A stretch of DNA of 50,994 nt. It comes from Verrucomicrobiota bacterium (GTDB lineage: Bacteria > Verrucomicrobiota > Verrucomicrobiia > Opitutales > Opitutaceae). Below, piece after piece: positions 26,333 to 45,000 of the stretch. Under the pieces are notes generated by a model, which searched no databases, was not told the origin of the DNA, and saw nothing but the letters and a program-made list of their open reading frames with translations. The first letter of the stretch is position 1. Every line of letters starts with the position of its first letter. The translations under genes and the position numbers were made by a program. The DNA lies in the NCBI GenBank assembly GCA_016871775.1, contig VHCI01000010.1, positions 1 to 50,994 on the forward strand, read 5' to 3'.

Positions 26333-26412
26333 TCCTGGAGCGTGGACCGCCCGCGGCGCGGACGCACGCCGGAAGCGGCCGGGCCGCCGAGCGGCGGGCA
26401 CGGAAACCAAAT

Positions 26413-26450
26413 ACTCAGTCGTTGAGTGAAATTACTCAACCATTGAGTAA
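26413..26450. promoter_or_regulatory. Tandem palindromic operators in the divergent intergenic region
   Basis: ACTCAGTCGTTGAGT (26413-26427) and TTACTCAACCATTGAGTAA (26432-26450) share ACTCA-N5-TGAGT; the second has perfect 8-bp arms around CCA. Equivalent positions are 21 bp apart, about two helical turns, so two dimers would bind the same DNA face. They sit in the 155-bp A/T-richer gap between the kinase-like and ATPase genes and could control both. The rest of the gap shows nothing else. Confidence 0.7.
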
Positions 26451-26487
26451 ACTTGACCCCGACTGCCGGTGCGGCTCTGCTGCCCTT

Positions 26488-27675
26488 ATGGCCTTCGAAC
26501 GCGCGGTGGTGGCGGAACTGGTGGCGGGCTGCCGCCGCCGGGATCCGCTCGTGCAGGTCCTGGTGGGCCCGCGTCAGGTCGGCAAGACCACAGCCGCGCA
26601 GCAGCTCGTGGCCCGGCTGGGCTGGCCGCACGTCTGGGCCGCCGCGGACGCGCCCCTCCCGCCCGGCCCGGAATGGATCGAGTCCCACTGGAGCCTGGCG
26701 CGCCAGCGGTCCGCCCCCGGGGGGCGGCGGGTGCTGCTCGTGCTCGATGAGGTCCAGAAGGTCTCCGGCTGGAGCGAGGTGGTGAAACGCCTCTGGGACG
26801 AGGAGCGGCGCACCGGGGGTATGGTGTTGCCGGTCCTGCTGGGCTCCTCCGCGCTCCTGGTGCAGCGCGGCGTCGCGGAGAGCCTCGCGGGGAGGTTCTT
26901 CCTCCATCGCTGCCCGCATTGGTCGTGGCCGGAATGCGCGGCCGCGTTCGGCTGGTCGCTGCCGGACTGGATCTATTTCGGCGGGTATCCGGGGGCGGCC
27001 CAGTTCACCGGCGAGGAGCCCGCGTGGCAGCGTTACGTGGTGGACTCGCTGATCGAGACCGTGCTGGCCCGTGACGTCCTGCAGTTGCAGGTGATCACCA
27101 AGCCGGTGCTCCTGCGGCACCTGTTCGCCCTGGCGGCCGCCTACCCGGCCCAGATCCTGTCGTACAACAAGATGCTTGGCCAGCTCCACGATGCCGGCAA
27201 CACGACCACGCTGGCGGGCTATCTCCGGTTGCTGGAAATGGCCTATCTCGTCTCCGGCCTCGAGGTCTTCTCGCGCGGGCAGCCGCGCAAGCGGGGCAGC
27301 AGCCCGAAGCTCATCCTCTGGAACAACGCGTTGATCAGCGCGCAGGGGCTGCGGTCCCGCGCGGCGGCGGTGGCGGATGGCGCGTGGTGGGGCCGCCTGG
27401 TGGAGAACGCCGTCGGTGCCAACCTGCTCAACGGGCTCTCCGGCCCGGCGTGGAGCGTGACCTACTGGCGCGAGGGCGACCAGGAGGTCGACTTTGTGGT
27501 CGCCCACGGGTCCGCGGTCTGGGCCGTCGAGGTGAAGAGCGGTCGTCCGGGCCGGCTCAGCGGGCTGGCCGCGTTCCGGGCCCGTTACCCGAAGGCCAAG
27601 GCCCTCGTGCTCGGCGGGGAGGGGGTCCCCTTGGAGGAGTTCTTCCAGCGGCCGCCGCCCGACTGGTTCCGTTGA
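26488..27675 (+). CDS. AAA-type ATPase with DUF4143 domain
   Basis: 395 residues; the ATG at 26488 was preferred to an in-frame TTG at 26422 that lies in the first operator. Walker A GPRQVGKTT (27-35), Walker B LLVLDEVQK (Asp87, Glu88), a sensor-like LLGSSALL, then a winged-helix-like segment (AAAYPAQILSYNKMLGQLHDAG...TLAGYLRLLEMAYLV). A C-terminal DUF4143/restriction-fold region follows with EVDFVV...VWAVEVKSG, a PD-(D/E)xK-like motif. Members of this family are widespread in bacteria and archaea, often patchily distributed; function is largely unknown. Soluble. The internal winged helix makes autoregulation at the upstream palindromes plausible. The ECF sigma box starts 24 bp after its stop. 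Confidence 0.88.
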   Translation: MAFERAVVAELVAGCRRRDPLVQVLVGPRQVGKTTAAQQLVARLGWPHVWAAADAPLPPGPEWIESHWSLARQRSAPGGRRVLLVLDEVQKVSGWSEVVKRLWDEERRTGGMVLPVLLGSSALLVQRGVAESLAGRFFLHRCPHWSWPECAAAFGWSLPDWIYFGGYPGAAQFTGEEPAWQRYVVDSLIETVLARDVLQLQVITKPVLLRHLFALAAAYPAQILSYNKMLGQLHDAGNTTTLAGYLRLLEMAYLVSGLEVFSRGQPRKRGSSPKLILWNNALISAQGLRSRAAAVADGAWWGRLVENAVGANLLNGLSGPAWSVTYWREGDQEVDFVVAHGSAVWAVEVKSGRPGRLSGLAAFRARYPKAKALVLGGEGVPLEEFFQRPPPDWFR

Positions 27676-27698
27676 CCGGGCGGCGCCCGCAAATTTCC

Positions 27699-27728
27699 CT
27701 AGCGGAAACCGCCGCGCCGTCCGTTGAT
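27699..27728 (+). promoter_or_regulatory. ECF-type promoter box before the sigma factor gene
   Basis: CTAGCGGAAACC (27699-27710) carries a GGAA -35-like core; CGTTGA (27722-27727) is the -10-like element, 14 bases after GGAA. The same arrangement, 23 of 30 positions identical without gaps, recurs at 29311-29340 before the receptor operon. GGAA...CGTT is the general form of many ECF promoters. Transcription from here would begin only about 6 bases before the sigma ATG, so the mRNA would be nearly leaderless. Confidence 0.7.
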
Positions 27729-27738
27729 AGGCCGGCAG

Positions 27739-28272
27739 ATGACCCCGCCGCCCGATGACTCCCGCTGGTTCGCCGAGCAGGTGCAGCCGCACGACGCGGC
27801 TCTGCGGGCCTGGCTCCGCGCCCGCTTCCCCGCGCTCGGGGACGTCGACGACCTCGTCCACGAATCCTACGCCCGGCTGCTCCGCCTGCGCGCGCGCGAT
27901 CCGTTGCGGGCACACTCGGTGAAGCCCCTGCTCTTCACCACGGCGCGCCACCTTGCCCTCGACGAGCTCCGCCGGCGCCGGATCGTCCCGCTGCAGCCGC
28001 TGCCTGGGGAGGAAGAGGGGATCCTGCCCGCGGATGACGCGCCGGGCGTGGATGAGACCGTGAGCCGCCGCCAGGAACTCGCGTTGCTGGCCGAGGCGAT
28101 CCAGGCGCTGCCGCCGCGTTGCCGGCAGATCCTCACGCTGCGCAAGATCTACGGGCTCCCGCAGCGGGAGATCGCCCGCCAGCTGAGCATCTCCGAGCAC
28201 ACCGTCGAGGCGCAGGTGGGGATCGGGATGCACCGCTGCGCCGACTACCTCAGCCGGCTCGGGCTGCCCTGA
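27739..28272 (+). CDS. ECF-family RNA polymerase sigma factor (FecI-like)
   Basis: 177 residues from ATG 27739; an upstream in-frame TTG falls inside the -10 element of the promoter. Region 2 spans about residues 16-75 (LRARFPALGDVDDLVHESYARLL...LLFTTARHLALDELRRRR) and region 4 about 118-170 (ALPPRCRQILTLRKIYGLPQREIARQLSISEHTVEAQVGI). That pattern, together with the fecR-like gene 6 bp downstream and a STN-domain receptor after it, defines a FecI-type cell-surface signalling sigma factor. It would direct RNA polymerase to the GGAA-N14-CGTT boxes, including the one before itself (positive autoregulation). Confidence 0.93.
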   Translation: MTPPPDDSRWFAEQVQPHDAALRAWLRARFPALGDVDDLVHESYARLLRLRARDPLRAHSVKPLLFTTARHLALDELRRRRIVPLQPLPGEEEGILPADDAPGVDETVSRRQELALLAEAIQALPPRCRQILTLRKIYGLPQREIARQLSISEHTVEAQVGIGMHRCADYLSRLGLP

Positions 28273-28278
28273 AGCAGG

Positions 28279-29301
28279 ATGAGCGCCCCCGCCGCACCCT
28301 CCCCGTCCGATCCCGTGGGCGCCGCGGCCGCCGAGTGGTTGGCGCGCCGCGACCGCGGGTTCACGCCGGCCGAGCAGGACGAATTCCTCGTCTGGCTCGC
28401 GGCCGACCCGCGCCACCGCGCCGCGATCGCGCGGATGGAGCGCGCTTGGAACGTGCTCGATCGCCTCGCGGTTTGGGAGCCGTCCGACGGTACGGCGCCG
28501 AATCCCGATCTGCTGGCTCCGCCGCCCGCGCGGCGCGTTCCGCGGTGGCGCCGGCTGCTCGGGCTGGCCGGCACCGCTGCGGTCACCGCGGTGGCGCTCA
28601 CGGTTTGGCTGGCCCCGCCGGGTCCGGTCCCGCCCGTGGCGGCCCCCGCCCCGGTCGCCGGCCTGCGGGTGATCCCGCGCCCGGAACCGGTGGCCCTGGA
28701 GGACGGCTCGCTCGCGCAGGTGAACCACGGCGGGCGGCTGGAACTGGCCTTCGCCGCGGAGGAACGGCGCGTGCGGCTGACGGAGGGCGAGGCCCATTTC
28801 ACGGTGCGGCGGGATCCGGGCCGGCCGTTCGTGGTCGAGGCTGGCCACGTCACCGTGCGCGCCATCGGCACGGCCTTCAGCGTCCACCGGAGGCCGGGGG
28901 GCGTTGATGTGCTGGTCACGGAGGGGCGCGTCGAGGTGGCGGCGTCCGCCGGCGCCCCGGTGCCGGTGGCGGTCGGCGAGCGCGCGCGGGTGGGGGTGGA
29001 CCTGAGGCCGGCGGTGGGGGCGGCCAAGCCCGAGCTGATCGAGCGCGCCCTGGCCTGGCGCGCGGTGCGCCTCGAGTTCGATGGCCTGCCGCTCGCGGCG
29101 GTGGTGACGGAGTTCAACTTGCGCAACGCGCTCCAGTTGGAGATCGGCGACGCCCCCGCGGGGCGCCTGCGGGTGGCGGGCACGTTCCAGGCGGACAAGC
29201 CCGAGGCCTTCGCGCGCCTGCTGGAGGCGGGTTTCGGCATCGCGGTGGAGCGCCGGACCGGCGGGGCCTGGGTGCTGCGCACCGCGGGGAAAGAAAAGTG
29301 A
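28279..29301 (+). CDS. FecR-family anti-sigma / sigma regulator
   Basis: 340 residues with the classical three-part layout. The cytoplasmic N-terminal DUF4880 domain (AAEWLARRDRGFTPAEQDEFLVWLAADPRHRAAIARMERAW) binds the sigma factor, one membrane helix follows (about 93-112, LLGLAGTAAVTAVALTVW), then a periplasmic FecR domain (VALEDGSLAQVNHGGRLELAF, RRDPGRPFVVEAGHVTVRAIGTAFSV in two blocks) and a C-terminal DUF4974/STN-like domain (AWRAVRLEFDGLPLAAVVTEFN...). The periplasmic part should contact the receptor's STN domain and relay ligand binding to the sigma factor. Six bp after the sigma gene, so co-transcribed. Confidence 0.93.
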   Translation: MSAPAAPSPSDPVGAAAAEWLARRDRGFTPAEQDEFLVWLAADPRHRAAIARMERAWNVLDRLAVWEPSDGTAPNPDLLAPPPARRVPRWRRLLGLAGTAAVTAVALTVWLAPPGPVPPVAAPAPVAGLRVIPRPEPVALEDGSLAQVNHGGRLELAFAAEERRVRLTEGEAHFTVRRDPGRPFVVEAGHVTVRAIGTAFSVHRRPGGVDVLVTEGRVEVAASAGAPVPVAVGERARVGVDLRPAVGAAKPELIERALAWRAVRLEFDGLPLAAVVTEFNLRNALQLEIGDAPAGRLRVAGTFQADKPEAFARLLEAGFGIAVERRTGGAWVLRTAGKEK

Positions 29302-29310
29302 TGGGAGCCG

Positions 29311-29340
29311 CTAACGGAACCCCCCGGGCTGTTCGTTGAG
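29311..29340 (+). promoter_or_regulatory. ECF-type promoter box before the receptor-sulfatase operon
   Basis: CTAACGGAACC (29311-29321) and CGTTGA (29334-29339) reproduce the box before the sigma gene with the same spacing. It lies in the 89-bp gap between the fecR-like gene and the receptor gene, so the expected transcript starts near 29345 with a leader of about 45 bases. This is the best evidence that the operon is a target of the adjacent sigma factor. Confidence 0.75.
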
Positions 29341-29390
29341 AAGGGTGGCACGCGCGCGACCCCGCCGCGCGGTCCCCCGATGAAAACCGT

Positions 29391-32300
29391 ATGACCCGCC
29401 CCTGCCCCGCCCCGCGATCCCCGTGGCTCGTCGCGGCGGTGGCGTGCCTCCTGTTCCTTGCCCCCCGCCTGCCCGGGGCCGAACCCCCCCGGGCCCGGTT
29501 CTCTCTCGCCGCCGGCGACGCCGCCGACACCCTGCGGCAGCTAGCCCGCCAAGCGCCGGAGTCGGTCGTGTTCCCGCCGGATCTGATCCGCGGCGTGCCG
29601 ACGCCCGCGCTGCAGGGTGAGTTCACCACCCGCGAGGCGGCCGAGCGCCTGATCGCCGGCACGTCGCTGTACGTTTCGCAGGATCCCCAGAGCGGCGCCC
29701 TGCTGATCGGCCGGCGCGCCGGCAGCCCAGACCCCACCTCCGTTTCCCTTCCCGCCCCAATGATGCCTCCCTCCAAGCCCTTCGCCGGCCTGGCCGCCCT
29801 CTTCGCGCTGGTCACCGGTCCCTCCGTCCTCGCCCAAGGCTCGCCCTCCTCCCCGGCCACCGTTAGCCCCGGATCCGACGAGGTTTTCCTGCTCACGCCC
29901 TTCGCCGTGGAAGGGGCCCGGGATCGCGGCTACACCGCGACCTCCACCCTAGCCGGGACCCGCATCAAGACCGAGCTCAAGGACCTCGGGGCGGCCATCT
30001 CGGTGGTCACCGCGGAGTTTCTGGCCGACACGGCCGCAACCGACGCGGGCACGTTGCTCTCCTATCTCACCAGTTCGGAGGTGGGCGGGCCGCAGGGCAA
30101 TTTCTCCGGCGCCGAAAGCGGCGACGCCAACCGCTATCTCCAGACCGACGCGCGCACGAACCCCCAGTTCAACCAGCGGATCCGGGGCATCGGCGAGGCG
30201 GCCCTCACCCGCGGTTATTTCCGCACCGACATCCCCTTTGACTCTTACAATACCGATAGCGTCACCGTCAGCCGGGGGCCCAATTCCCTGCTGTTCGGGA
30301 TCGGCAGCCCCGGTGGCATCATCAACAATGGCCTGAAGGTCCCGGTGTTCGGCCGCGATCATCTGGAGGTCACTGGCCGGTATGGCTCGCATGGTAGTTC
30401 GCGAATCGAGACCGACCTCAACCGCGAGCTGATCCGGGGCCGCGTCGCGCTTCGTCTCGCGACCCTCTTCGATGATGAGCATTACCAGCAGAAGCCGGCC
30501 TTCGAGCGAGACAAGCGGCTCTACGGCGCGATCGAGGTGGTGCTGGCGCGGAACGCCCGCAGTCCGGTGCTGGGCCCCACGCTGCTCAAGGCGAACGTCG
30601 AGACGGGGCGCGTCAACGGGTCCCCGGTAGAGATCATTCCGCCGTCCCGGGCGTACGACAATTGGTTCGCGCCGTTCCCGGCCGGAATCGCGCGGCTCAC
30701 CGGGACCCCGCCGCCCACCACGGTCGTCTCTCCAGCCGAGGGCGGCTCGTGGCGGTTCCAGGCGACCTTCAATCCGTTCGTCAGCAATCTGGAATCCGAC
30801 ATCAACACCAACGTCCATCCCGCCTACTTCCGGCGCATCCCGGTCATTTATAACAGCGCGACGGCAAGCCAGCCCACGCTCGGCCTGGCGGGACCCGATC
30901 CCCACGGCCAGGTGCCGGACCTACGGGTGATCGCGGGGATGCTCGGGGCCGCGAATTGGAACCCCACGCGTGACTTCGTCGCGACGGCCGGACTGACCGG
31001 GCTGCCCGGGGTCCAGCCGCTCGTGGCGGCGGCCGGGGGCAATCCGGCCACCGCCCGGCTCGGCACGCATCAGCTGTACCACGCCAACAGTCCCTATGGG
31101 GAGGGCTACACCCCCGGCTTTGCCACGCCGACGCTCCAGAACCGGAAGGTCTTCGACTACCACAACCTCGTCTACTCAGGCGGCGTCGACCGGGTGGAGA
31201 AGGTCTTCGGGGCGAGGAGCGTTGCGCTCGAGCAGACCTTCCTCCGCAACCGGCTAGGCGTCGAGCTGGCCTACGACCGGCAGAATTACCAGTGGACCCA
31301 GGATTTCCTCTTCAGCGGCGGCGGGGGCACGAGCTCCGCCGGTCCCTACGACGTCTACATCGACATCAACGAGTACCTGCTCAACGGCCTACCGAATCCC
31401 AATCTCGGCCGTGCCTACACCCGCGTCTCGGGCAACGTGATCCGCCGCGTCCGGTGGGACCGAGAAACCGCCCGCGCGACCGTGTTCGGCGAGTACAACT
31501 TCCGGGAAAAGAAGGGCGGCTGGTGGCGCCATCTGGGCAAACACCGGGTGGTGGGCCTGTTCTCCCGCGACGTCTTCGACGACTTCCGCGAGGGCTTGGT
31601 GGACACGTGGACCAGCAACACCGAAAACATCGCCGGCATCGCCAACGACAACCTGCTCACCGGCATCCGGCGCCGGCTCAACGTCGGCGTGTACACCTCG
31701 TCTTCCCTTCTCGGAGTGAGGTCGCCGGACGATATTCGGCTGGAGCAGATCCGCATCCGGAGGCCGCAGCCGGGCGACACCTTCGAGATCCTTTACGCGG
31801 ACGTCGGGGCTGCCACCGCCGCTGGCCGTCGAGTGCAGAGCGGGCCGATGACCCTCGCGCGCGTGCTGTCGGAGCAGCGCGTCCTCCAGCAGCGGCTGAG
31901 CTCGCAGGCGGTCAGCTGGCAAAGCTACCTGTGGGATGAACATCTCGTGGGCCTGCTGGGCACGCGGCGAGACCAGACCCGCTCCTACGATAACCAGAAT
32001 GCGCAGCAGCTCGGCTTCAGCACCACGCTTCCGGACGGCACCTGGAACACCGCGGCCACGCGGCTCACCACCGCCCCGGTGTTCGCCGAGTCCGGCACCA
32101 CGGTCACCTCGAGCCTGATCGCGCGGTTTCCCGAGCGGTATCTCTTCCCCCTTCCGCTGGGTGCGGACCTCCAGTTCCACTACGCAAAGTCGGAAAACTT
32201 CAACCCGATCGGGTTGCGCAACGACACGCTGGGGTCGCCGATCGCGCAGCCCACCGGCAAGACGCGGGAGTACGGTTTCCTCGTGGAACTCCTGGATCGC

Positions 32301-33305
32301 CGAATCAGCCTCCGGTTCAACCGGTTCGAGACCGCCCTGCGGAACGTCGACGCGGGGGCCTTCGCCGACGTGGGCGGGTTCTTCGTCGCGAACATGAACA
32401 AGTATCTGCAGGCGCGCCGCGACGGGTTCCCCTTCGCTCAGCACCGGGTGCTGGTCGGGATCGAGCCCTGGCCCAGCACCATCACGACCTACGACCAGTT
32501 CTTCGCCGCGTTCACGGAGACCGTGCCCGCCCAGCTCCGGGGCGCCCTGAATCCCGTCTACCGCGACAACAACGGCGATGGGGTGGCCGACCAGCTCGTG
32601 GTCAACTCCATCACCAACCAAGGTGACACCTCGGACCGGGTGGCGCGGGGCCTCGAGGTGGAGCTGACCGCGAATCTCACACGCAACTGGCGCGCGCTGC
32701 TGAATGTGGGGCGGCAGGAGACCGTGCAGAGCAACACCGCCCCGCTGAACTGGCCAATCGCGGAGGCCTTCCTGAAAGGCATGCAGGAAAAGGGCATCCT
32801 CCCGCTCGTGCTGGATCCCGGCGGCGCCGGCGGGGGTGTGGTCCGCAGCATCGGCTCCCAGTGGCTGCAGACCAGCATGGGCAGCATCCGGGCGGCCCGC
32901 TCCCGGGACGGCGTGCGCGCCAACGAGCAGCGCGAGTGGCGCCTCAACGCGGTCTCAAAGTACACCTTCGGGGAGGGCTCGCTGAAGGGGATCGGGATCG
33001 GTGGCGCTGCGCGCTGGGAGAGCAAGGCCGCGACCGGCTATCAGACCTACCTCATCGACGGGAATGTCCCGGTGCCCGACGTGCGGCGCCCGTTCTTCGA
33101 CGACGGCCTGTTCAGCGCGGACGCGTTCGCCAGCTACGAGCGGCGCCTCTTCGGGAGGTACCAGTGGCGGATCCAGTTCAACGTGCGGAACCTTGTGGCG
33201 GAGACCAGTGACATCCCGGTCAAGACCAACCCCGATGGCCAGGTCGCGGTGATCCGCATCCCCAACCCCCGCGTCTGGTACCTCACCAGCTCCATCCGCT
33301 ACTGA
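29391..33305 (+). CDS. TonB-dependent receptor/transducer with N-terminal STN domain
   Basis: 1304 residues. Signal peptide about 1-26, then an STN (secretin/TonB short N-terminal) domain, about 30-115 (ARFSLAAGDAADTLRQLARQ, FTTREAAERLIAGTSLYV), the part that signals to FecR proteins. A second hydrophobic stretch follows at about 124-149 (MMPPSKPFAGLAALFALVTG) and ends in LAQG like a signal-peptidase site; ATG codons at 29760 and 29763 begin it. The plug (VEGARDRGYTATSTLAGTRI, TVSRGPNSLLFGIGSPGGII) and a long barrel ending WYLTSSIRY follow. It should import a ligand and report it to the FecR/sigma pair. First gene of the operon; the next gene starts 5 bp after its stop. Confidence 0.92.
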   Translation: MTRPCPAPRSPWLVAAVACLLFLAPRLPGAEPPRARFSLAAGDAADTLRQLARQAPESVVFPPDLIRGVPTPALQGEFTTREAAERLIAGTSLYVSQDPQSGALLIGRRAGSPDPTSVSLPAPMMPPSKPFAGLAALFALVTGPSVLAQGSPSSPATVSPGSDEVFLLTPFAVEGARDRGYTATSTLAGTRIKTELKDLGAAISVVTAEFLADTAATDAGTLLSYLTSSEVGGPQGNFSGAESGDANRYLQTDARTNPQFNQRIRGIGEAALTRGYFRTDIPFDSYNTDSVTVSRGPNSLLFGIGSPGGIINNGLKVPVFGRDHLEVTGRYGSHGSSRIETDLNRELIRGRVALRLATLFDDEHYQQKPAFERDKRLYGAIEVVLARNARSPVLGPTLLKANVETGRVNGSPVEIIPPSRAYDNWFAPFPAGIARLTGTPPPTTVVSPAEGGSWRFQATFNPFVSNLESDINTNVHPAYFRRIPVIYNSATASQPTLGLAGPDPHGQVPDLRVIAGMLGAANWNPTRDFVATAGLTGLPGVQPLVAAAGGNPATARLGTHQLYHANSPYGEGYTPGFATPTLQNRKVFDYHNLVYSGGVDRVEKVFGARSVALEQTFLRNRLGVELAYDRQNYQWTQDFLFSGGGGTSSAGPYDVYIDINEYLLNGLPNPNLGRAYTRVSGNVIRRVRWDRETARATVFGEYNFREKKGGWWRHLGKHRVVGLFSRDVFDDFREGLVDTWTSNTENIAGIANDNLLTGIRRRLNVGVYTSSSLLGVRSPDDIRLEQIRIRRPQPGDTFEILYADVGAATAAGRRVQSGPMTLARVLSEQRVLQQRLSSQAVSWQSYLWDEHLVGLLGTRRDQTRSYDNQNAQQLGFSTTLPDGTWNTAATRLTTAPVFAESGTTVTSSLIARFPERYLFPLPLGADLQFHYAKSENFNPIGLRNDTLGSPIAQPTGKTREYGFLVELLDRRISLRFNRFETALRNVDAGAFADVGGFFVANMNKYLQARRDGFPFAQHRVLVGIEPWPSTITTYDQFFAAFTETVPAQLRGALNPVYRDNNGDGVADQLVVNSITNQGDTSDRVARGLEVELTANLTRNWRALLNVGRQETVQSNTAPLNWPIAEAFLKGMQEKGILPLVLDPGGAGGGVVRSIGSQWLQTSMGSIRAARSRDGVRANEQREWRLNAVSKYTFGEGSLKGIGIGGAARWESKAATGYQTYLIDGNVPVPDVRRPFFDDGLFSADAFASYERRLFGRYQWRIQFNVRNLVAETSDIPVKTNPDGQVAVIRIPNPRVWYLTSSIRY

Positions 33306-33310
33306 GTCCC

Positions 33311-34684
33311 GTGCACGCCCCCTCCGCCCGTTCCGCCCGACGCTCGCTCTGGCGCGGCTACATCCTTGTCCCCCTCCTGCTCGCGGCTGGTGCCGCGGCG
33401 GGGGCCGCCGCGCAGCCCCCGCCCAACTTTGTCATCATCCTCGCCGATGATCTCGGCTACGGGGACCTCGCGTGCTACGGGCATCCGCGGCACCGCACGC
33501 CCCACCTCGACCGGCTTGCCGCCGAGGGCCTGCGCTTCACCGACTTCCACAGCAACGGCGCGATGTGCTCACCGACCCGTGCGGCGCTGCTGACCGGGCT
33601 CTACCCGAGCCGATTCGGGCGAAAGTTCGAGTCCGCCCTCAGCGGGCGCGCGGACCGCGGCGGGGGCCTCCCGCTCGCGGCCACCACGTTGGCGGAGGTG
33701 CTGCGGGACAGCGGCTACGCCACCGGGGCCTTCGGCAAGTGGCATCTCGGCTACGAGCCGCCGTTCGGGCCCACGCGGCAGGGGTTCACCGAGTTCCGCG
33801 GGCTCCTTTCCGGCGACGGGGACCATCACACGCACCGGGACCGGGAGGGTCGTCTCGACTGGTGGCACGGCGAGGAGAGGGTCGCGGAGGAGGGCTACAC
33901 GGCGGAACTGCTCACCCGGCACAGTGTCGCCTTCATCGAACGCCACCGCGACCGGCCTTTCCTGCTCTACGTGCCCCATCTGGCCATCCACTTCCCGTGG
34001 CAGGGGCCTGGCGATCCGCCGCACCGCACCGCGGCCCGCGACTACGAAGACGAAAAATGGGGCCGAATTCCCGATCCCGGCAACGTCGCCCCCCACGTGC
34101 AGGCGATGGTCGAATCGCTGGACGCGGGCGTGGGCGCCATCGTAGCCGCGCTGCGTCGCCTCGCGATCGCGGAGCGGACGCTGGTGTTCTTCACGTCCGA
34201 CAACGGCGGCTACATCACCTATGGGGCGAAATTCCGGAACATTTCTAGCAATGGCCCGCTGCGTGGGCAGAAGACCGAGCTCTACGAGGGCGGGCACCGC
34301 GTGCCGGCGATCGCCTGGTGGCCCGGTCGTATCCGGCCCGGGGTCACGGCGGCAACGACCGCGACGTTCGATCTCTTCCCCACGGTGCTTGGCTTGGCCG
34401 GGCTCCGGCCGCCGCCCCACGACGGCGCGGACCTCGCCCCGCTCCTGCTCCGTGGCGTCGCGCCGGAGGGGCGCACGCTGTTCTGGCGCGCCGGGGCGCG
34501 GGCGGCGGTGCGGCGTGGGCCGTGGAAGCTGGTCCGGCCCGCGGAGGGCGCACCGTCGTTGTATCACCTCGGTGAGGACATCGGGGAGACGCGCGACCTT
34601 GCCGGGCGCGAGGCGGGAACCGTGGCCGCGCTGCAGGCGGCCCTCGGAAACTGGGAGACCGAGGTCGACCGCGGTGGCCGCTGA
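33311..34684 (+). CDS. S1-family sulfatase (arylsulfatase type)
   Basis: 457 residues from a GTG start 5 bp after the receptor stop; no ATG precedes the signal peptide (SLWRGYILVPLLLAAGAAAG). Metal ligands in IILADDLGYGDLACYG, catalytic signature Cys86-Ser-Pro-Thr-Arg with LLTG, GKWHLGYEP, HLAIHFPWQGPG and FFTSDNGGYI are all present, so it looks active. Cys86 must be converted to formylglycine by an enzyme not seen in this window. Expected to remove sulfate esters from a glycan in the periplasm or outside. No subfamily can be assigned by eye. Confidence 0.93.
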   Translation: MHAPSARSARRSLWRGYILVPLLLAAGAAAGAAAQPPPNFVIILADDLGYGDLACYGHPRHRTPHLDRLAAEGLRFTDFHSNGAMCSPTRAALLTGLYPSRFGRKFESALSGRADRGGGLPLAATTLAEVLRDSGYATGAFGKWHLGYEPPFGPTRQGFTEFRGLLSGDGDHHTHRDREGRLDWWHGEERVAEEGYTAELLTRHSVAFIERHRDRPFLLYVPHLAIHFPWQGPGDPPHRTAARDYEDEKWGRIPDPGNVAPHVQAMVESLDAGVGAIVAALRRLAIAERTLVFFTSDNGGYITYGAKFRNISSNGPLRGQKTELYEGGHRVPAIAWWPGRIRPGVTAATTATFDLFPTVLGLAGLRPPPHDGADLAPLLLRGVAPEGRTLFWRAGARAAVRRGPWKLVRPAEGAPSLYHLGEDIGETRDLAGREAGTVAALQAALGNWETEVDRGGR

Positions 34685-34688
34685 CGCG

Positions 34689-36089
34689 ATGCGCTCTCCC
34701 CGCCACTTCGCCGCGGTCCTCGCGCTGGCGCTGGCCGCCGGCGCCGCCTCCAGTTTGGTCCAGGCGGCCCCCCGTCCCAACGTGATCCTCGTCCTTGCCG
34801 ACGACCTCGGCTGGGGTGACCTCGGCGCCTACGGGCAGCGGGAGATCCGGACGCCCCACCTCGACCGGCTCGCCGCGGAGGGGATGCGGTTCACGCAGTT
34901 CTACGCCGGATCATCCGTCTGCGCGCCCTCTCGTTCCTGCCTGATGACCGGCCGCCACAACGGCCGCGGCCGTGTGCGCGACAACGTGCCCCACGGGGTC
35001 CATCTGCTGGCGGGGGATCTCATCCTCCCGGAGGTGCTGCGCGGCGCCGGCTACCGCACCGGCGGTTTCGGCAAGTGGAGCCTCGGCGACCACGGCGAGG
35101 CGGGAGCCCCCTGGCGGAAGGGTTTCGACGAGTACTACGGCTACCCGAACCAGGACCACGCCCACTTCTACTACCCGCATTTCCTCTGGGACACCGATCG
35201 GGTCGTCCTGCTGCCCGGCAACCGTCCGGGCCTGCCGGCGGCGAGGCGCGAGTACACCCCCGACCTCCTGCTGGCCCGCGCCCTGCGGTTCCTCGAGCGG
35301 CAGCGCGAGGACCGCCGTCCGTTCCTCCTCTATTTTCCCACCATCCTGCCGCACTGGTCGGAGTTTCCTAAGGACACCCCAGAGTCCCATGCGATCCCGA
35401 GTGATGCCCCCTACACGGGGCGCGACTGGCCGCCGGTGGAGCGGAATTACGCCGCGATGGTCACCCGGCTCGATCGCGACGTCGGCGCGCTGCTCGCCAA
35501 GCTCGGGGAACTGGGGCTGGAGCGCGATACGCTAGTCCTTTTCACGAGCGACAACGGGCCCTCGGGCGAAACGATCCATCGTCCCGATTTCTTCCGGAGC
35601 GCCGGCCCTTTCCGCGGCAGCAAGCGCCAGCTCTACGAGGGGGGCATCCGCGTGCCCCTGCTGGCGCGCTGGCCGGGGGTGATCCCTCCCGGCCAGGTGA
35701 GCGATGCGCTGAGCGCCAACTGGGACCTCCTGCCCACGCTGGCGGAACTCGCAGGCGCCCCGCCGCCGGCCGGCCTCGACGGGATCTCGCTCGCGCCCGT
35801 CCTCCGGGGCCAACCCCGGGACCGCGAACCCGAGTTCCTGTACTGGGATTACGGCCACACGCGCGAGGCGTTCCTACAGGCGGTCCGGGCCGGCGACTGG
35901 AAGGCCGTGCGGCCGGCGCTGGACCGGCCGACGGAACTTTATGATCTCGCGGCCGACCCAGGGGAAAGCCGCGACCTCGCCCGGGCGCGCCCCGATATCG
36001 TCGCCCGGTTGGAGGGAATGATGCGCCGCGCCTATGAGCCCTCGCCGGATTATCCGATCCGGAGCGCCCCGGCCGCCCCCCGCCCCTGA
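34689..36089 (+). CDS. S1-family sulfatase
   Basis: 466 residues from ATG 34689, 4 bp after the previous stop. Signal peptide MRSPRHFAAVLALALAAGAA, then VILVLADDLGWGDLGAYG, signature Cys78-Ala-Pro-Ser-Arg-Ser-CLMTG, FGKWSLGDHGEAGAPW, LFTSDNGPSGE and a C-terminal ELYDLAADPGESRDLA. All expected metal and sulfate-binding positions seem intact. The DHGEAGAPWRKGFDEYYGY stretch differs from the preceding sulfatase, so they probably attack different linkages. Periplasmic or secreted. Confidence 0.93.
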   Translation: MRSPRHFAAVLALALAAGAASSLVQAAPRPNVILVLADDLGWGDLGAYGQREIRTPHLDRLAAEGMRFTQFYAGSSVCAPSRSCLMTGRHNGRGRVRDNVPHGVHLLAGDLILPEVLRGAGYRTGGFGKWSLGDHGEAGAPWRKGFDEYYGYPNQDHAHFYYPHFLWDTDRVVLLPGNRPGLPAARREYTPDLLLARALRFLERQREDRRPFLLYFPTILPHWSEFPKDTPESHAIPSDAPYTGRDWPPVERNYAAMVTRLDRDVGALLAKLGELGLERDTLVLFTSDNGPSGETIHRPDFFRSAGPFRGSKRQLYEGGIRVPLLARWPGVIPPGQVSDALSANWDLLPTLAELAGAPPPAGLDGISLAPVLRGQPRDREPEFLYWDYGHTREAFLQAVRAGDWKAVRPALDRPTELYDLAADPGESRDLARARPDIVARLEGMMRRAYEPSPDYPIRSAPAAPRP

Positions 36090-36110
36090 GCCCCCGATTC
36101 GTTCCCCGCC

Positions 36111-39057
36111 ATGATCCCAACCTTGCCCCATCGTTGGCGTCTCCCCTCGTTGCTGCGCCGGGGTCTCCCGCTCGTGCCGCTGCTCGGCGGCCTACTCCTC
36201 GCCCCGGCCCGGGCGCAGGAGCCCGGAGGCGCCTTGGGTGGATTCGTCAGCAACCGTGCCACCGGCCAGCTGCTGCAGGGCGCACGCGTCGAGTTGCCCG
36301 CCCTCGGCCGCGGGACCCTGACCGACGGCACCGGCCGCTACGCCTTTACCGGCCTGCCGGCAGGTGACCAAGCTGTTGTCGTGACCTACGCTGGCCTCGA
36401 TCCGCGGCGCGAGACGGTGGGGATTCCCGCCGCGGGGGTCGTGGGGCGCGATTTTGCCCTCGAGTCGGAGACTTACCGGATGGAGGCCTTCACCGTCACC
36501 GGGGAGCGCGAGGGCAACGCCGTGTCCATCACGCGGCAGCGCAACGCCGACAACGTCATCCACGTCGTCTCGACGGACACCTTCGGCAACGTGGCCGATG
36601 GCAACCTGGGTAATTTCCTGCAACGGCTGCCGGGCGTCGGGGCGATCATCGAGAACGGGGACATTATCGGGTTCGGGGTGCGCGGTACGCCCTCCGAGCT
36701 GAACTCCGTGAGTGTCGATGGGGTTCGCTCCTCCAACGCCTACGGGGGGGGCCAACCCGCAGGGAGACCGGGCGGTCGTGGTGGACTCGATCCCGTCCGA
36801 TTTCATTAAGGAGATCGAGCTGGTGAAGGCGCTCACGCCCGACCTGCCCGCGGATTCGGTGGGCGGGGCCACGAATCTCGTCACCAAGTCCGCGCTCGAT
36901 TTCCGGGACCCGGTGCTGACCTTCCGTGCGGGGGCCAACCAGAACACGTACCGCCGGGACGACCGACCGTGGCGGCCGACTGGCGGCGTGAGCTACCTGA
37001 CCCAGCTCGGTCCGGCGAGGCGCATCGGGGTGGCTCTTTCCGCGAGCTACACGGAGACCACCAACAGCCGGGATCGAATCCAGATGGCGCGCAATTTCGC
37101 CGACGGCCGCAACACCACCGCGCGCACCCTCAACGATCAGGCGACCCGCACCCGGGCCGGTCTCGGAGCCAAGTTCAACTACCGGCCGGATGAGCGCACC
37201 GAGCTGCATTTCACCACCCAGTACACCTACTTCTCTTTTCAGCAGGCGCGTACGGACTGGAGCATCACCGCAGGCAGCACGGCGGTCGCCGACTACGGCG
37301 CGGTGAGCCGCGCGCAGATCGAGGCCGGCGCCGCGCCGCGAACGGCGACGAACGCTGCGGCGGGAGTGGCACCCGGTTTCTCCGACGCCTTCACCGAGAT
37401 CCTGAACGCGACGTTCGTCAATACGGCCGGGGGCACCGCGCGGCACGGCCGAACCTACCGGTATGACCTCGCGGGCAGCCGCAAGCTGCCGGGTGAACAG
37501 AAGCTCTCGTTCCAAGCCACGTGGAACCCTTCGGAATACGACTTTATCTTCCAATTCATGGAGAACCGCCGGACCGGCGGCTTCGGCGTCGCCGTCGACA
37601 CGCGGGAAAACCGCGACCGGCCGGTCTACCGGCAGACCTACGGCACCACGATTGGCGCGGGCGCCGACCTGCGTCCCTACACGGCCCTGCGGGCCGTGAA
37701 CCGGGAGCGGAGCGACGAGGGGATTGCCCAGGGCCGGATCGATTACGAGGGCAAACTCGCCGCGGCCGGCGCCGCCTTGGAGTTCAAGGCGGGACTCAAC
37801 TGGCGGCGCCAGGACCGGACGCTGACCGTGTACCAGCCGCGGTGGAACTACGTGGGGCCGGACGGCGTGGCCGGATCCGCCGACGACAACCTGGCGCAGT
37901 TCCGAAGGGCCGAACCGGGCTACGGCCTGTTCAACAACCAGTATCCCCGGCGCGACCAGTTTGATTACCCGAAGTTCCTGCAGGCCTTCGAGGCCAATCC
38001 TAGCTGGTTCCGCGAGTCCGGCACCACGGTGTCCACGGCCCCCGCCTTCAACGGCATCACCGAGGACGTCTCCGCCGGGTACGCGATGACCCGCGCGCGC
38101 TGGGGCGGATTCAGCGTCCTGGCCGGCGCCCGGGTCGAGGACACCGCCGTCTCCGCCACCGGCCGCATCACGGATCCCCGGAACGCCGGCCGGACCCTCG
38201 TGAGCCGCGACGGCGGTTACCGGGACCTCTTTCCGAGCGTGCACCTCCGCCACGAGCCGCTGGCCGGACTGCTGCTGCGCGCCAGCTACTCCACGGGCAG
38301 CGCGCGCCCGGCCTTCAGCGATGTCTACCCCGTGACCACCGTCTCCTACAACACCGCGACCGGCCTGGGCCAGGTGCGGCAATCGGATCCCGGGCTGCGG
38401 CCGCAGTACAGCCGCAACCTCGACGCCTCCGTTGAGTATTACCTGGCCCCGGTCGGGGTCGTCTCCCTGGCCCTGTTCCACAAGCGGCTGACCGACTTCA
38501 TCTCGAGCGAGACCCGGATCATCGAGACCGGGGCCGGCAACGGCTTCGGCGGCGAATATGCCGGCTTCGACTGGATCACGACCCGCAACTTCGGCTCCGC
38601 CACCATCAAGGGTTACGAGCTCAACTACAGCCAGCAGCTGCGGAGGTTGCCCGGCGTCCTGCGCGGCCTCGCCCTCTTCGCCAACTACACGCGGATCTCC
38701 ACCACCGGTACCTACGCGAACGGCACCGCGGAGCTGGTCCGGTTCATCCCGGAGACGGCCAACGCTGGCCTGTCCTGGCGCTGGCGCGGACTCTCCCTGC
38801 GCGCGGCCGGCAATTACAAGAGCGGCTACCTGATGACCTACAACGCCAACGATTACGCCCGGCAGCGCGTGACCGACGTCACGACGTGGGACTTCAACGT
38901 CCAGTACGGCTTCAGCCCGCGGGTCAACGTGTTCGTCGATGTGGTGAACGCCTTCAACCGCTGGGCCTCCTGGTACACTGGCGCGGATCCGGGCCGGGTC
39001 ATTATGAGCGAGGTCTACGGCACCCGCCTGAGCGCTGGGGTCAGCGGCCGCTTCTGA
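36111..39057 (+). pseudogene. TonB-dependent receptor, frameshifted at a run of eight G
   Basis: Two frames join into one receptor of about 981 residues. The first, from ATG 36111, has a signal peptide, a carboxypeptidase-regulatory-like domain (GGFVSNRATGQLLQGARVEL...GRYAFTGLPAGD) and the plug start (HVVSTDTFGNVADGNLGNFL, SVSVDGVRSSNAYGG). The second resumes at ANPQGDRAVVVDSIPSDFIK and runs through LPADSVGGATNLVT to the barrel end RLSAGVSGRF. The shift lies in G8 at 36744-36751; seven G restores the frame. As written, translation ends near 36809 within the plug. It is genuinely broken, phase-variable, or miscalled. The downstream part is well conserved, which argues for recent or artefactual damage. 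Gene four of the operon. Confidence 0.88.
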
Positions 39058-39071
39058 GCTCTCCGCCCCCG

Positions 39072-40511
39072 ATGCGTCTCCTCGCTTCCCTGTTCCTCGG
39101 CTCCGCGCTAACGGCTGCGGCGGCCTCGCCTGGTCGCCCGCCGAACGTCCTGTTCCTAGCCTCCGACGACCTGCGGGACAACCTCGGCTGCCTTGGCGAC
39201 CCGGTGGCGCGCACGCCCCACCTCGACGCCCTCGCGCGCCGCGGCGTCCTCTTCGAGCGCGCCTACTGCCAGCAGGCGCTCTGCAACCCGTCCCGCGCCT
39301 CCCTGCTCACCGGGCGGCGCCCGGACACGCTGCGGGTCTGGAACCTCCCCACCCACTTCCGCGAGACCCTGCCCGACGTCGTCACCCTGCCGCAGCACTT
39401 CCTGCGGCACGGCTACTTCACCCGGAACATCGGGAAAATCTTCCATAACTTCCGCACTCGGATCCAGGGGGACCCCGCCTCCTGGAGCGTACCCGCGGAG
39501 CTCCACTTCGCCTCGCACGCGGCCGATGTCGCGGTGCTCGACGGGGGTACGGCGCCGCCGAACCTCGCGCAGGCGAAGGGAGCGGAGGCCCGCGACGTCC
39601 CGGATGAGGCCTATTTTGACGGCCGGGTGGCGGCGCGCGCGGTCGAGGCCCTGCGCGCAGCCAGCCGTCGCCCCGAGCCCTTCTTCCTCGCGGTCGGTTT
39701 CTGGAAACCGCACACGCCCTTCAATCCGCCCAAGCGCTATTGGGACCTTTATCGCCGCGGCGAGATTCCGCCCATCCGGCATCCGGGACCGCCGCGCGAC
39801 ACGCCCGCCGTCGCGCTGAAGGGTGCGAACGAACTCAGCCCCGGCACTCGCGAGGCGATGGCGGAACTGCGGCACGGCTATTACGCCGCGACCAGCTACC
39901 TCGACGCGCAGGTCGGCAAGGTCCTCGCGGAGCTCGACCGCCTCGGGTTGGACGGCAACACCATCGTCGTGTTCTGGTCCGACCACGGCTTCCACCTCGG
40001 GGAACACGGCCTCTGGGGCAAGACCTCCAACCGGGAACTCGACGCCCGCGTCCCCCTCATCATCACCGCGCCGGGGGTCGCCCGCGCGGGCTCGCGGACC
40101 CGCTCCCTCGCGGAACTGCTCGACCTCTTCCCCACGCTCGTGGACCTCTGCGGCCTGCCGACGCCGGCCGGGCTCGAGGGCGCGAGCCTCCGCCCGGTCC
40201 TCGCCGACCCATCCGCCCGCGTCAAGGACGCCGCCTTCACCCAAACCCCACGGCCCGCCAACATCCAGGGCGGCCGCAGTGAGATCATGGGCTACTCCCT
40301 GCGGGATGACCGCCATCGTTACACCGAATGGCGCGCGTGGTCGACGGGCGATCTGGTCGAGGCCGAGCTTTATGATCTCGCCCAGGATCCCGGCGAAGAT
40401 GTCAACCTCGCCGTGGAGCCCGCCCGCGCGCCCGTCCTGGCCTCGCTCGCGGCGCGGCTGGCCCGCCAGTTCCCCCGCCGTCCTCTCCCCGCCGAACCCG
40501 CCCTTCCCTGA
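39072..40511 (+). CDS. Iduronate-2-sulfatase-like S1 sulfatase
   Basis: 479 residues from ATG 39072, 14 bp after the receptor stop. Signal peptide MRLLASLFLGSALTAAAASP. The pattern NVLFLASDDLRDNLGCLGDP, signature Cys71-Asn-Pro-Ser-Arg-ASLLTG, RVWNLPTHFRETLPDVVTLPQ-like and IGKIFHN, AVGFWKPHTPFNPPKRYWDLY and FWSDHGFHLGEHGLWGKTSN is that of the iduronate-2-sulfatase-like group. In bacteria members of this group act on several sulfated sugars, so the substrate is open. Key residues are intact. Confidence 0.93.
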   Translation: MRLLASLFLGSALTAAAASPGRPPNVLFLASDDLRDNLGCLGDPVARTPHLDALARRGVLFERAYCQQALCNPSRASLLTGRRPDTLRVWNLPTHFRETLPDVVTLPQHFLRHGYFTRNIGKIFHNFRTRIQGDPASWSVPAELHFASHAADVAVLDGGTAPPNLAQAKGAEARDVPDEAYFDGRVAARAVEALRAASRRPEPFFLAVGFWKPHTPFNPPKRYWDLYRRGEIPPIRHPGPPRDTPAVALKGANELSPGTREAMAELRHGYYAATSYLDAQVGKVLAELDRLGLDGNTIVVFWSDHGFHLGEHGLWGKTSNRELDARVPLIITAPGVARAGSRTRSLAELLDLFPTLVDLCGLPTPAGLEGASLRPVLADPSARVKDAAFTQTPRPANIQGGRSEIMGYSLRDDRHRYTEWRAWSTGDLVEAELYDLAQDPGEDVNLAVEPARAPVLASLAARLARQFPRRPLPAEPALP

Positions 40512-40523
40512 ACCCCGCTCCCG

Positions 40524-41612
40524 ATGAAGCCCATCCTCTGGTGTTCCCTGGCCCTTTGCTCCAGCCTGACAGCCAACCCGCCGCCAAGTGTGGTGCGGGC
40601 GGGGTTCATCTTCGAGCAGGCCCCGTTCGCCGAGTGCCACGCCTCGACCATCGTGGACTCGGGGAGGGGGCTGGTCGCCGCGTGGTTCGGCGGCACCCGC
40701 GAGCGCAGTCCGGACGTGGGCATCTGGGTTTCCCGCCAGGAATCCGGCGGCTGGACCGCCCCCGTGGAGGTCGCGAATGGCCTGCAGTTCACCTACACCG
40801 ACGGGACATCCTTACGCTACGCGTGCTGGAATCCGGTGCTCTTCCAGAATCCCGGCGGACCGCTGATACTCTTTTACAAGGTGGGTACGACGGCGCAGAA
40901 CTGGTGGGGGATGGTCGTGACGAGTCGCGACCAAGGAGTGACCTGGACCGAGCCGCGCCGGCTCCCGCCGGGTTTCTTCGGGCCGATAAAGAATAAACCC
41001 GTCTCCCTGCCGGGCGGCGTGCTCCTCGCCCCCTCCAGCGACGAGTCGCACGAGACGCCGAGCGCGTGGCGCGTGCATTTCGAGCGCAGCAGCGACGGCG
41101 GCCGCACCTGGACCCGTACCGGCCCGCTTAACGACGGGCGCACCCTCAGCGCCATCCAGCCGAGCATCCTCGTGCATCCCGGCGGCCGCTTGCAGGCGCT
41201 GGGGCGCACGCGGCAGGGCCGGCTCTTCGACACTTGGTCGTCCGACGGTGGACTCAACTGGGGCCCGCTGACCTTGAGCGAATTGCCGAACCCGAACTCC
41301 GGCACCGATGCGGTCACCCTGCGGGACGGCCGGCACCTGCTGGTTTACAACCACGCGGAGGCAGGCCGCTCGCCGCTGAATGTCGCCCTTTCGCGCGACG
41401 GCCGCGCCTGGGTGGGGGCGTTGGTCCTTGAATCAGAGCCGGGAGAGTTCAGCTACCCGGCGGTCATCCAAGCGGCCGACGGGCTCGTCCACCTCACCTA
41501 CACGTGGAAGCGGAAGAAAATCCGGCACGTGGTCCTCGATCCCGCGCGGCTGGAAGGATCGCCCATCACGGCGGGCCGCTGGCCATCCACGGTCGGCACG
41601 GCCGCGCCTTGA
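40524..41612 (+). CDS. Exported sialidase-superfamily (BNR repeat) protein
   Basis: 362 residues from ATG 40524, 12 bp after the sulfatase stop; last gene of the operon. Short signal peptide (MKPILWCSLALCSSLTA). Six-bladed sialidase-type propeller features are visible: FAECHASTIVDSGRGLVAAW with FGGTRE, repeated S-x-D-x-G-x-TW Asp-box motifs (TSRDQGVTW, ERSSDGGRTW, SSDGGLNW) and NPNSGTDAVTL...LLVYNH. It resembles bacterial exo-sialidase/BNR_2 proteins, many of which act on sugars other than sialic acid. In a sulfatase operon it may be the glycosidase or a carbohydrate-binding protein; catalytic residues cannot be confirmed by eye. Confidence 0.8.
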   Translation: MKPILWCSLALCSSLTANPPPSVVRAGFIFEQAPFAECHASTIVDSGRGLVAAWFGGTRERSPDVGIWVSRQESGGWTAPVEVANGLQFTYTDGTSLRYACWNPVLFQNPGGPLILFYKVGTTAQNWWGMVVTSRDQGVTWTEPRRLPPGFFGPIKNKPVSLPGGVLLAPSSDESHETPSAWRVHFERSSDGGRTWTRTGPLNDGRTLSAIQPSILVHPGGRLQALGRTRQGRLFDTWSSDGGLNWGPLTLSELPNPNSGTDAVTLRDGRHLLVYNHAEAGRSPLNVALSRDGRAWVGALVLESEPGEFSYPAVIQAADGLVHLTYTWKRKKIRHVVLDPARLEGSPITAGRWPSTVGTAAP

Positions 41613-41637
41613 GCGTGCCCTCGACCTAGCCTCTTCG

Positions 41638-41808
41638 CTAAGCCGGCACGATTCAATTGGAGGCGGAGCAGCGGGGTGAGATGGCGAGCACATTTCAGGG
41701 GCGAGAGACCGAGGCATACCCGGAGGGTATGGCGACGGGAGAGAGCCACTGAAAGGTGCCGGCAGGTCACCTCGATGCGACCCGATCAATTGAATTGTCC
41801 CGGCTAAG
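41638..41808. repeat. MITE-like element with 22-bp imperfect terminal inverted repeats
   Basis: The left end (41638-41659, CTAAGCCGGCACGATTCAATTG, read as two halves CTAAGCCGG and ACGATTCAATTG) and the right end (41787-41808) are inverted copies matching at 19 of 22 positions. The 171-bp unit has no credible gene. It lies in the 433-bp gap between the sialidase and PSCyt genes. No clear target-site duplication is visible. The remainder of the gap (41809-42045) holds no gene that I can support. Confidence 0.6.
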
Positions 41809-42045
41809 GTCGGGTGCGCGGTCCACCTCGGCTCATTTTTCCGGAAGAGGCCACGCAGTTCCGGTGGGGCGGCGACGGGATCCGAGCCGGGCTCGCCGCG
41901 CCCCGGGATGCGCGATGCGCCGGCCGGCACCACTTGGAAGTTTGACCGCGCCCCCACCAGCCAAACCCTTGATGCCCGGTTCCGCCGGGCGGGAAAGGGT
42001 TGCCTCCGCCGCGCGGCCGCGGACACGGTTCCGGCCGCGCCGCCC

Positions 42046-45000
42046 GTGTCGTCCCGAACCGCCCCCGTCACCCGTTCCTCCCCGCGCGGCCCGCGCTGGC
42101 TCGCCGCTGCGCTGGCAGGCGCGCTGACCGCGGTCGCGGCCCCGGATTTCGAACGCGAGGTCCAGCCGGTGCTCGCCGCGCATTGCCTCAAGTGCCACGG
42201 GCCGGAAAAGCAGAAGGGCGGCTACCGCGTCGACGTGAAGGCCATCGCGCTCACCGGCGGCGAGGGCTCCGCCCCGAATCTCCTCCCCGGCAACGCCACG
42301 GGCAGCCCCCTCTTCCGCTACGTGAGCGGCGCCGACCCCGACCTGCGGATGCCGCCCGCCGGCGAACCGCCGCTCGCCCCCGCCGAGGTGGCCCTCCTGC
42401 GCGCCTGGATCGACGCCGGCGCACCCTGGCCCGACCACGCCAGCGCGACTGTCGCCGATCCGCTCGACTGGTGGTCGCTCAAGCCCGTCGCGCGCGTCAC
42501 CCCGCCGCCCGGGGCCCCGCACCCGGTCGACGCGTTCATCCGCGCCCGCCTCGCCGCCGCCGGGCTACCGCCCTCGGCCCCGGCCGATCCCCGCACGCTG
42601 ATCCGCCGCCTCTCCTTCGACCTCACCGGCCTCCCTCCTTCCCCCGAGGAGATCGCCGCCTTCGTGGCGGATCCCGCCCCGGACGCCTACGCGCGCCTCG
42701 TGGATCGGTTGCTCGCGTCCCCGCGCCACGGCGAACGCTGGGCCCGCCACTGGCTCGACGTCGTGCACTACGGGGACACCCACGGCTACGATAAGGACAA
42801 GCCCCGGACCAACGCCTGGCCCTACCGCGACTACGTCATCCGCGCCTTCAACACGGACAAACCCTACGCGCGGTTCGTGCAGGAGCAGATCGCGGGGGAC
42901 GTGCTCTTCCCCGACTCGCCCGAGGCCGTTGAGGCGCTCGGCTTCATCGCCGCCGGCCCCTGGGATTTCATCGGGCACGCCGAGGTCCCGGAGACGAAGA
43001 TCGACGGCAAGCTGGCCCGCCACCTCGACCGCGACAATATGGTCGCCAACGCGATCGGCACCTTCGCGAGCGCCACGGTGCACTGCGCCCAGTGCCACCA
43101 GCACAAGTTCGACCCGATCCCCCAAGAGGATTACTACCGCCTCCAGGCCGTCTTCGCCGCGCTCGACCGCACCGACCGCCCCTACCATCGCGATCCCGCC
43201 CTCCACGCGCGCGCCCGCCGGCTGCAGGCCGATCAGGCGGCGAACGCGGCCGCCCTCGTCACCCTGGAGGCGCCTTGGCGTGCCGCCGCCGGCCCCGCCC
43301 TCGCGGAACTCGATCGCGCGCTCGCCGCCGCCGCCGCCGAACGCGGCCCGAACGTCCGCCGCGGCTACCACAGCGCCACCGCCGCTTCGCCCGACACCGT
43401 GAAGTGGGTGCAGGTCGACCTCGGCGCCACGGTCGAGATCGACCGCATCTGGCTGCTGCCGGCCAGCGACCCCTTCAACGGCCGCGGCGACGGCTTCGGC
43501 TTCCCGGTGCGCTTCAAGGTCGAGGTGAGCGATGACCCGGAGTTCCGCACCGGCGTGAAACTCGCGTGGATCCGCTACGACGCCACTTTTATGGCGGACT
43601 TTCCCAACCCCGGCCTCACGCCCTTCTCGACCGGCGGGGGCAAGGACGACGGCCTCGCCGGCCGCCACGTGCGCGTGACCGCCACGCGCCTCGCGCCCCG
43701 GAAGGACGACTACATCCTCGCCCTCGCCGAGCTGAAGGTGACCGACCGGGCCGGCCACAACGTGGCCCTCGGCAAACCGGTGACGGCGCTCGACTCAATC
43801 GAGTCCGGCGAGCGCTGGGCGCGCGCGAACCTCACGGACGGGCTCGCGCCCTCCGGCCCCGGCGCCGAGGAGAAGGCCGCGCTGGCGGCACGGCGCGAGG
43901 AGGTGCTGCTGGCCGCGGCCGACCCGGCGGGACGGGAACGGCGCGCGGCGCTCCGGCGCGAGGCGGAGCGGTTGGCGGCGGAGGTCGCCGCGTTGCCCAA
44001 GCCCGACCTCGTCTACGCCGGCGGCATCCACCACGGCACCGGCACCTTCACCGGCACGGGACCGGCGGGCGGCCGTCCGCGCCCGATCCACCTCCTCGCC
44101 CGCGGGCAGGTCACCCATCCCGGCCGATTGGTCGCCCCCGGCGCGCTCTCGGCGATCACCTTCGCCCCCGCCACGTTTGAGCTGCCGGACGACGCGCCCG
44201 AGGGTGCGCGCCGCGCGGCGCTTGCGCGCTGGCTGACCGACCCGCGCCATCCGCTCACCTGGCGGAGCATCGTGAACCGGGTCTGGCAGTATCATTTCGG
44301 GCGTGGCCTGGTGGAGACGCCGGACGACTTCGGCCGCAACGGCGGCCAGCCCTCGCACCCGGAGCTGTTGGACTGGCTCGCGGCGGAGTTCCGCGACGGC
44401 GGCGGCTCCCTGAAGGCGCTGCACCGCCTGATCGTGACCAGCGAGACCTACCGGCAGGCGTCTTCGGCGAACGCGGTGGGCGCGGCGAGCGACGCGGGCA
44501 ACACGCTCCTGTGGCGGCAGAACCGGCGCCGGCTGGAGGCCGAGGCGGTCCGCGACGCGGTGCTGGCGGCGAGCGGCCGCCTGGACCTCGCGATGGGCGG
44601 CCCGGGCTGGCGGGACTTCGTCGTGGAGCGGCCCGAGCACTCGCCGCACTACGTCTACGCCAAGGCGGACCCGGAGGACCCCGCCACCTTCCGCCGCTCG
44701 ATCTACCGGTTCATCGTGCGCTCGCAGACGCAGCCGTGGATGACCGCGCTCGACTGCGCGGATCCCTCGATGCGCGTGGACCGCCGCAGCGAGAGCCTCT
44801 CGCCGCTGCAGGCGCTGGCGCTGCTCAACCACGGCTTCATCCTCACGCAGGCGCGCCACTTCGCGGCGCGGGTTTCGGCGGAGGCGCCGGACCTCGCGGG
44901 CCAGGTCGCGCGCGCGCACGCCCTCGCGGTGGGCCGCGCGCCCTCGCCCGCGGAGGCGGCGCAACTCGGCGAGTTCGCCCGCGTCCACGGCCTGCCGGCG

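Follow-up and report, generated by a model that had tools for sequence, protein, structure and literature searches.

A one-base frameshift at a G8 run in a TonB-dependent receptor gene of a Verrucomicrobiota metagenome bin: probably a recent loss of function

Introduction

The described systems closest to the locus treated here are the meningococcal genes hmbR and hpuA, in which the lengths of poly-G tracts vary among isolates and in which ON states are common (PMC3786947). For example, hmbR tracts of length 9 are present in 51% of isolates (PMC3786947). The abstracts available on the subject describe poly-G switching in pathogens and mention nothing obvious of the kind in Verrucomicrobia. The other relevant group consists of genes that have simply lost their frame, such as the frameshift pseudogene clusters found with GeneTack (PMC3711429). 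Frameshift loss as a kind of event is already well known.

The window, by which we mean the whole stretch of 50,994 nucleotides that was analysed (contig VHCI01000010.1), contains a TonB-dependent receptor gene that is interrupted at a run of eight guanines. A preliminary description of this DNA had proposed that the run could be a phase-variable switch and had given a homopolymer error or a recent loss as the alternatives. We have compared the locus with its counterparts in related genomes (57 were searched) and with the other homopolymer runs of the same genome. The host is probably a freshwater Opitutaceae-like bacterium, and the receptor gene belongs to a sulfatase-rich operon.

The broken receptor gene

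The G8 run lies exactly at positions 36744–36751 (plus strand) in the context TAC-GGGGGGGG-CCAACCCG and is the junction of two well-conserved frames of one receptor. The upstream frame (36111–36809, plus strand) starts with the ATG at 36111, encodes 232 amino acids and ends with the stop codon at 36807–36809, i.e., 58 bases past the run; its product has a signal-peptide-like start, continues with a CarboxypepD_reg domain and reaches into the plug (positions 2–75 of the 107 of the Plug profile). The downstream frame (36712–39057, plus strand), which opens mechanically at the GTG at 36712, is open across the G8 run and continues without any further lesion through the remaining plug and the beta-barrel to its end at 39057. 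In profile searches PF13620/PF13715 and PF07715 were found in the first part and PF00593 in the second, and the gene as a whole has the order of a CarboxypepD_reg-type TonB-dependent receptor: signal peptide (recognized by eye), regulatory-like domain, plug and barrel. In the relatives the protein is continuous at the break point, reading Y-G-G-A-N-P-Q-G-D-R (sequence SNAYGGANPQGDRA), and by this alignment the frame must therefore move by one base within the G8 run; a codon model also calls the frame switch at exactly this run. The frameshift that had been placed within the receptor plug is thus borne out, position, frames and the continuous reading in relatives all being in agreement. It should be noted that the run by itself is unremarkable, as 25 G or C runs with a length of exactly eight were counted in 1.19 Mb of the window genome; the coincidence of run and break inside a conserved gene is not chance.

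The operon, which was said to be otherwise intact, indeed looks so in all its other genes, and the neighbours of the broken receptor are free of lesions. Its apparent first gene is a sigma-factor-like ORF (27724–28272; named from its sequence alone), which is followed on the same plus strand by genes assigned in profile searches: an intact FecR-like anti-sigma gene (FecR, DUF4880; 28279–29301), another, intact TonB receptor (Plug profile; 29391–33305), an intact sulfatase (PF00884; 33311–34684) and an ORF (34221–36089) of which residues 186–513 are a sulfatase (PF00884) and which probably starts in reality near base 34690. The broken receptor gene is followed by an intact sulfatase (PF00884; 39072–40511, plus strand) and an intact BNR-repeat, sialidase-like gene (40524–41612, plus strand), and then, still on this strand, a PSCyt/DUF1549/DUF1553 gene and a DUF1501 gene. 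The layout suggests that the operon serves to take up and degrade a sulfated polysaccharide.

A dispersed repeat is present at 41636–41815; it is about 170 bases long and has about 18 matches in the window genome and at least 12 in that of the sister bin described below (G009). The repeat folds as a single long hairpin (−96.8 kcal/mol, z −9), has the matching ends GCCGG-CACGATTCAATTG and CAATTGAATTGTCCCGGC, and was without match in an Rfam search; it looks like a MITE-type element.

Orthologues in relatives

The closest intact receptors are those of two genomes of the same genus, G025 (77% identical in the downstream part; open frame of 1006 codons) and G003 (66%; 1014 codons). At the site of the G8 run G025 has the codons GGC GGC GCG and G003 the codons GGC GGA GCC, neither of which forms a G-run. 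As the two relatives use mixed glycine codons at this place, the run is not a conserved switch. A disabling lesion in the gene of the window is thus found next to intact orthologues in relatives, as in a pseudogene.

The two halves of the broken gene have not decayed. With G003 as outgroup, 30 amino-acid changes fall on the window branch and 28 on that of G025 in the upstream part, and 52 and 50, respectively, in the downstream part; dN/dS of the downstream part, calculated against G025, is about 0.11. From the lack of an excess of changes on the window branch and from the low dN/dS it follows that the inactivation is recent.

We also looked for related receptors that are broken at this same plug site, without success: where their open frames are short, the cause is a cut at a contig end, with the one exception of a receptor in G001, which has its lesion elsewhere, namely in the barrel.

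The identical block in a sister bin

The sister bin G009 is a Verrucomicrobia MAG named K_Offshore_40m, and its contig C43 (L039, VHCY01000043.1) carries the same G8 and a downstream frame of which all 781 residues are identical to those of the window. Indeed, the DNA of the two is without a single difference over 16,774 bases (26337–43110, by sequence alignment). The right limit of this block is the end of the G009 contig, the block therefore being at least 16.8 kb long; left of 26336 the sequences change sharply to about 4% divergence (68 differences in 1.7 kb). Over the 372 kb that could be aligned, this contig included, the window genome and G009 are only 92.4% identical. A second version of the operon was not found in the G009 bin. 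Close to its left edge the block contains a gene for an AAA_14/DUF4143 ATPase (26422–27675), which adjoins the sigma-factor-like ORF.

Either the two species have recently exchanged this DNA, a sulfatase/TonB operon then having passed from one sister species to the other, or the contig is a chimera of two species. An identity of 16.8 kb between genomes with a divergence of about 8% elsewhere is arguably a more interesting lead than the G8 run itself. For the present question it matters that the run has the same length in the two records of this allele, no variant of the tract length having been found among these two, which are perhaps not two independent lineages.

Homopolymer runs and a second broken gene

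In 438 long ORFs of the window genome 23 G7 runs were counted where 84 are expected from synonymous shuffles, and 7 G8 runs where 33 are expected. Long runs are, by this comparison, avoided in coding DNA, runs of seven or more being depleted, and an excess of tracts, as is characteristic of genomes with contingency loci, is not seen in these ORFs. In priA-, nusA- and RF3-like genes (named from sequence), runs of eight or nine leave the frame undisturbed. The genome contains both mutS and mutL, and mismatch repair, to which these genes belong, generally keeps short tracts stable. By far the longest run in the 1.19 Mb examined is one of 21 C (L111 7106–7126; G000:C8:7106–7126), which encodes an in-frame poly-glycine in an enolase-superfamily-like gene.

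The window contig contains a second broken gene, a sulfatase in two frames (10625–12002, plus strand; by profile and comparison with the sister), of which the frame switches at a G6 run (11144–11149). Its halves match positions 2–105 and 201–301 of PF00884; the counterpart in G009 has a G5 and is intact, with the domain extending across the site. Six guanines are fewer than in classical phase-switch tracts.

In both breaks (11144–11157 and 36744–36759) the G-run is followed by N-CAACCCG. There are only four copies of the sequence GGGGGNCAACCC in the genome. That this context breaks genes by itself was ruled out, because the two sites other than the breaks are in open frames. The shared context is a curiosity, the two cases having been picked after the fact.

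Two further lines of evidence were set aside. The claim that the window genome is far richer in frameshifts than the sister (20 versus 0) was dropped because in every Pfam-matched gene except the sulfatase the Pfam domain lies outside the site, and also because the higher GC content of the sister (71.2% versus 69.5%) gives rise to spurious long ORFs there. Loose switches called by the codon model at other runs were left uncounted, because ordinary junctions between genes produce such a signal too and because the geometry of these calls was ambiguous.

Interpretation of the frame break

The best-supported reading is the recent loss that the preliminary description had given only as an alternative, with intact relatives, no excess of amino-acid change and depleted long runs on its side. 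We assign a probability of roughly 0.6 to a recent loss-of-function frameshift that arose by slippage in a chance run and that is shared via a common haplotype. A chance string of glycine and alanine codons would have yielded the G tract; slippage by one base in replication would then have shifted the plug out of frame; translation would stop shortly after the run, and the barrel would not be made; and the null allele would have spread or persisted on the haplotype common to the two MAGs. Slippage would thus be the cause, the receptor would be without function and the run without a regulatory role. The second frameshift in the same contig points in this direction, its G6 run being too short for classical switching. 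It should be noted, however, that preserved halves and intact neighbours would also be expected of a phase-OFF allele, and that the tract lengths of known poly-G switches span a range that includes eight. If the loss is as plain as it seems, the locus is one more broken uptake gene, relevant only to the annotation of the operon.

Next in rank, although unlikely, is that the gene is in frame in the cells and that the length of the run was misread through short-read error or in assembly. The window genome is a MAG of 274 contigs, and the context that the two breaks share (G-run, N and CAACCCG), together with the rarity of GGGGGNCAACCC, makes an error conceivable that is specific to a sequence context and recurs between samples. 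Against this, the same G8 is present in a second record. One de Bruijn assembly would not emit the same 16.8 kb twice, which implies two assemblies. The name of the sister MAG suggests that it belongs to a Lake Tanganyika survey in which Illumina HiSeq reads were assembled with metaSPAdes sample by sample (PMC8245535). Moreover, the other two GGGGGNCAACCC sites are in open frames and further runs of G8–G9 are in frame in housekeeping genes. The homopolymer error considered in the preliminary description is therefore improbable in its random form, as two records agree on the length of the run, and conceivable as an error tied to the context.

Somewhat less probable again is phase variation, i.e., that reversible slippage in the G tract turns the receptor ON and OFF, the purpose being, e.g., to evade phages that use the receptor or to match the supply of substrate. 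A simple repeat within the ORF does sit at the frame switch, as in a contingency locus; the gene that contains this G8 codes for a surface receptor, its two halves and the operon are intact, and there is precedent in receptors of the TonB type (PMC3786947). The switch that had been proposed is nevertheless not supported: the tract has one length in two records and is missing from the orthologues, coding DNA is depleted in long runs and shows no sign of a maintained set of tracts, runs in housekeeping genes are in frame, mutS and mutL are present, and the break in the sulfatase of this contig lies at a run as short as six. If mixed tract lengths were nevertheless true, this would be a poly-G receptor switch in free-living Verrucomicrobiota. 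The extended version, in which the tract is a population-level switch of a polysaccharide receptor in free-living lake Verrucomicrobiota and the switchable allele was passed between species on the block of at least 16.8 kb, is quite improbable.

Least likely is recoding, in which ribosomal or transcriptional slippage would still yield some full-length receptor: a G run does let glycyl-tRNA re-pair one base on, or polymerase slip, and until recently purifying selection acted on both halves, but the orthologues are in frame without the run, so that no frame transition is conserved, and shuffled sequences give RNA as stable as that around the site (z 0.19).

Comparison with known systems

The locus resembles hmbR and hpuA of Neisseria meningitidis in that the gene for an outer-membrane uptake system of the TonB type has a poly-G tract within its coding sequence and that a change by one base turns the product off (PMC3786947). 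It differs from them in that they exist in many lengths with ON states being common, whereas here a single length is found in two records and the tract is not conserved. A further difference is that hmbR and hpuA serve haemoglobin uptake, whereas the gene of the window is from a free-living lake bacterium, probably for the uptake of polysaccharide. With the frameshift pseudogene clusters of GeneTack (PMC3711429), the locus shares a one-base break in a conserved gene of which both sides are preserved and the orthologues intact. Unlike in those pseudogenes, the broken allele is present here in two MAGs on one shared haplotype.
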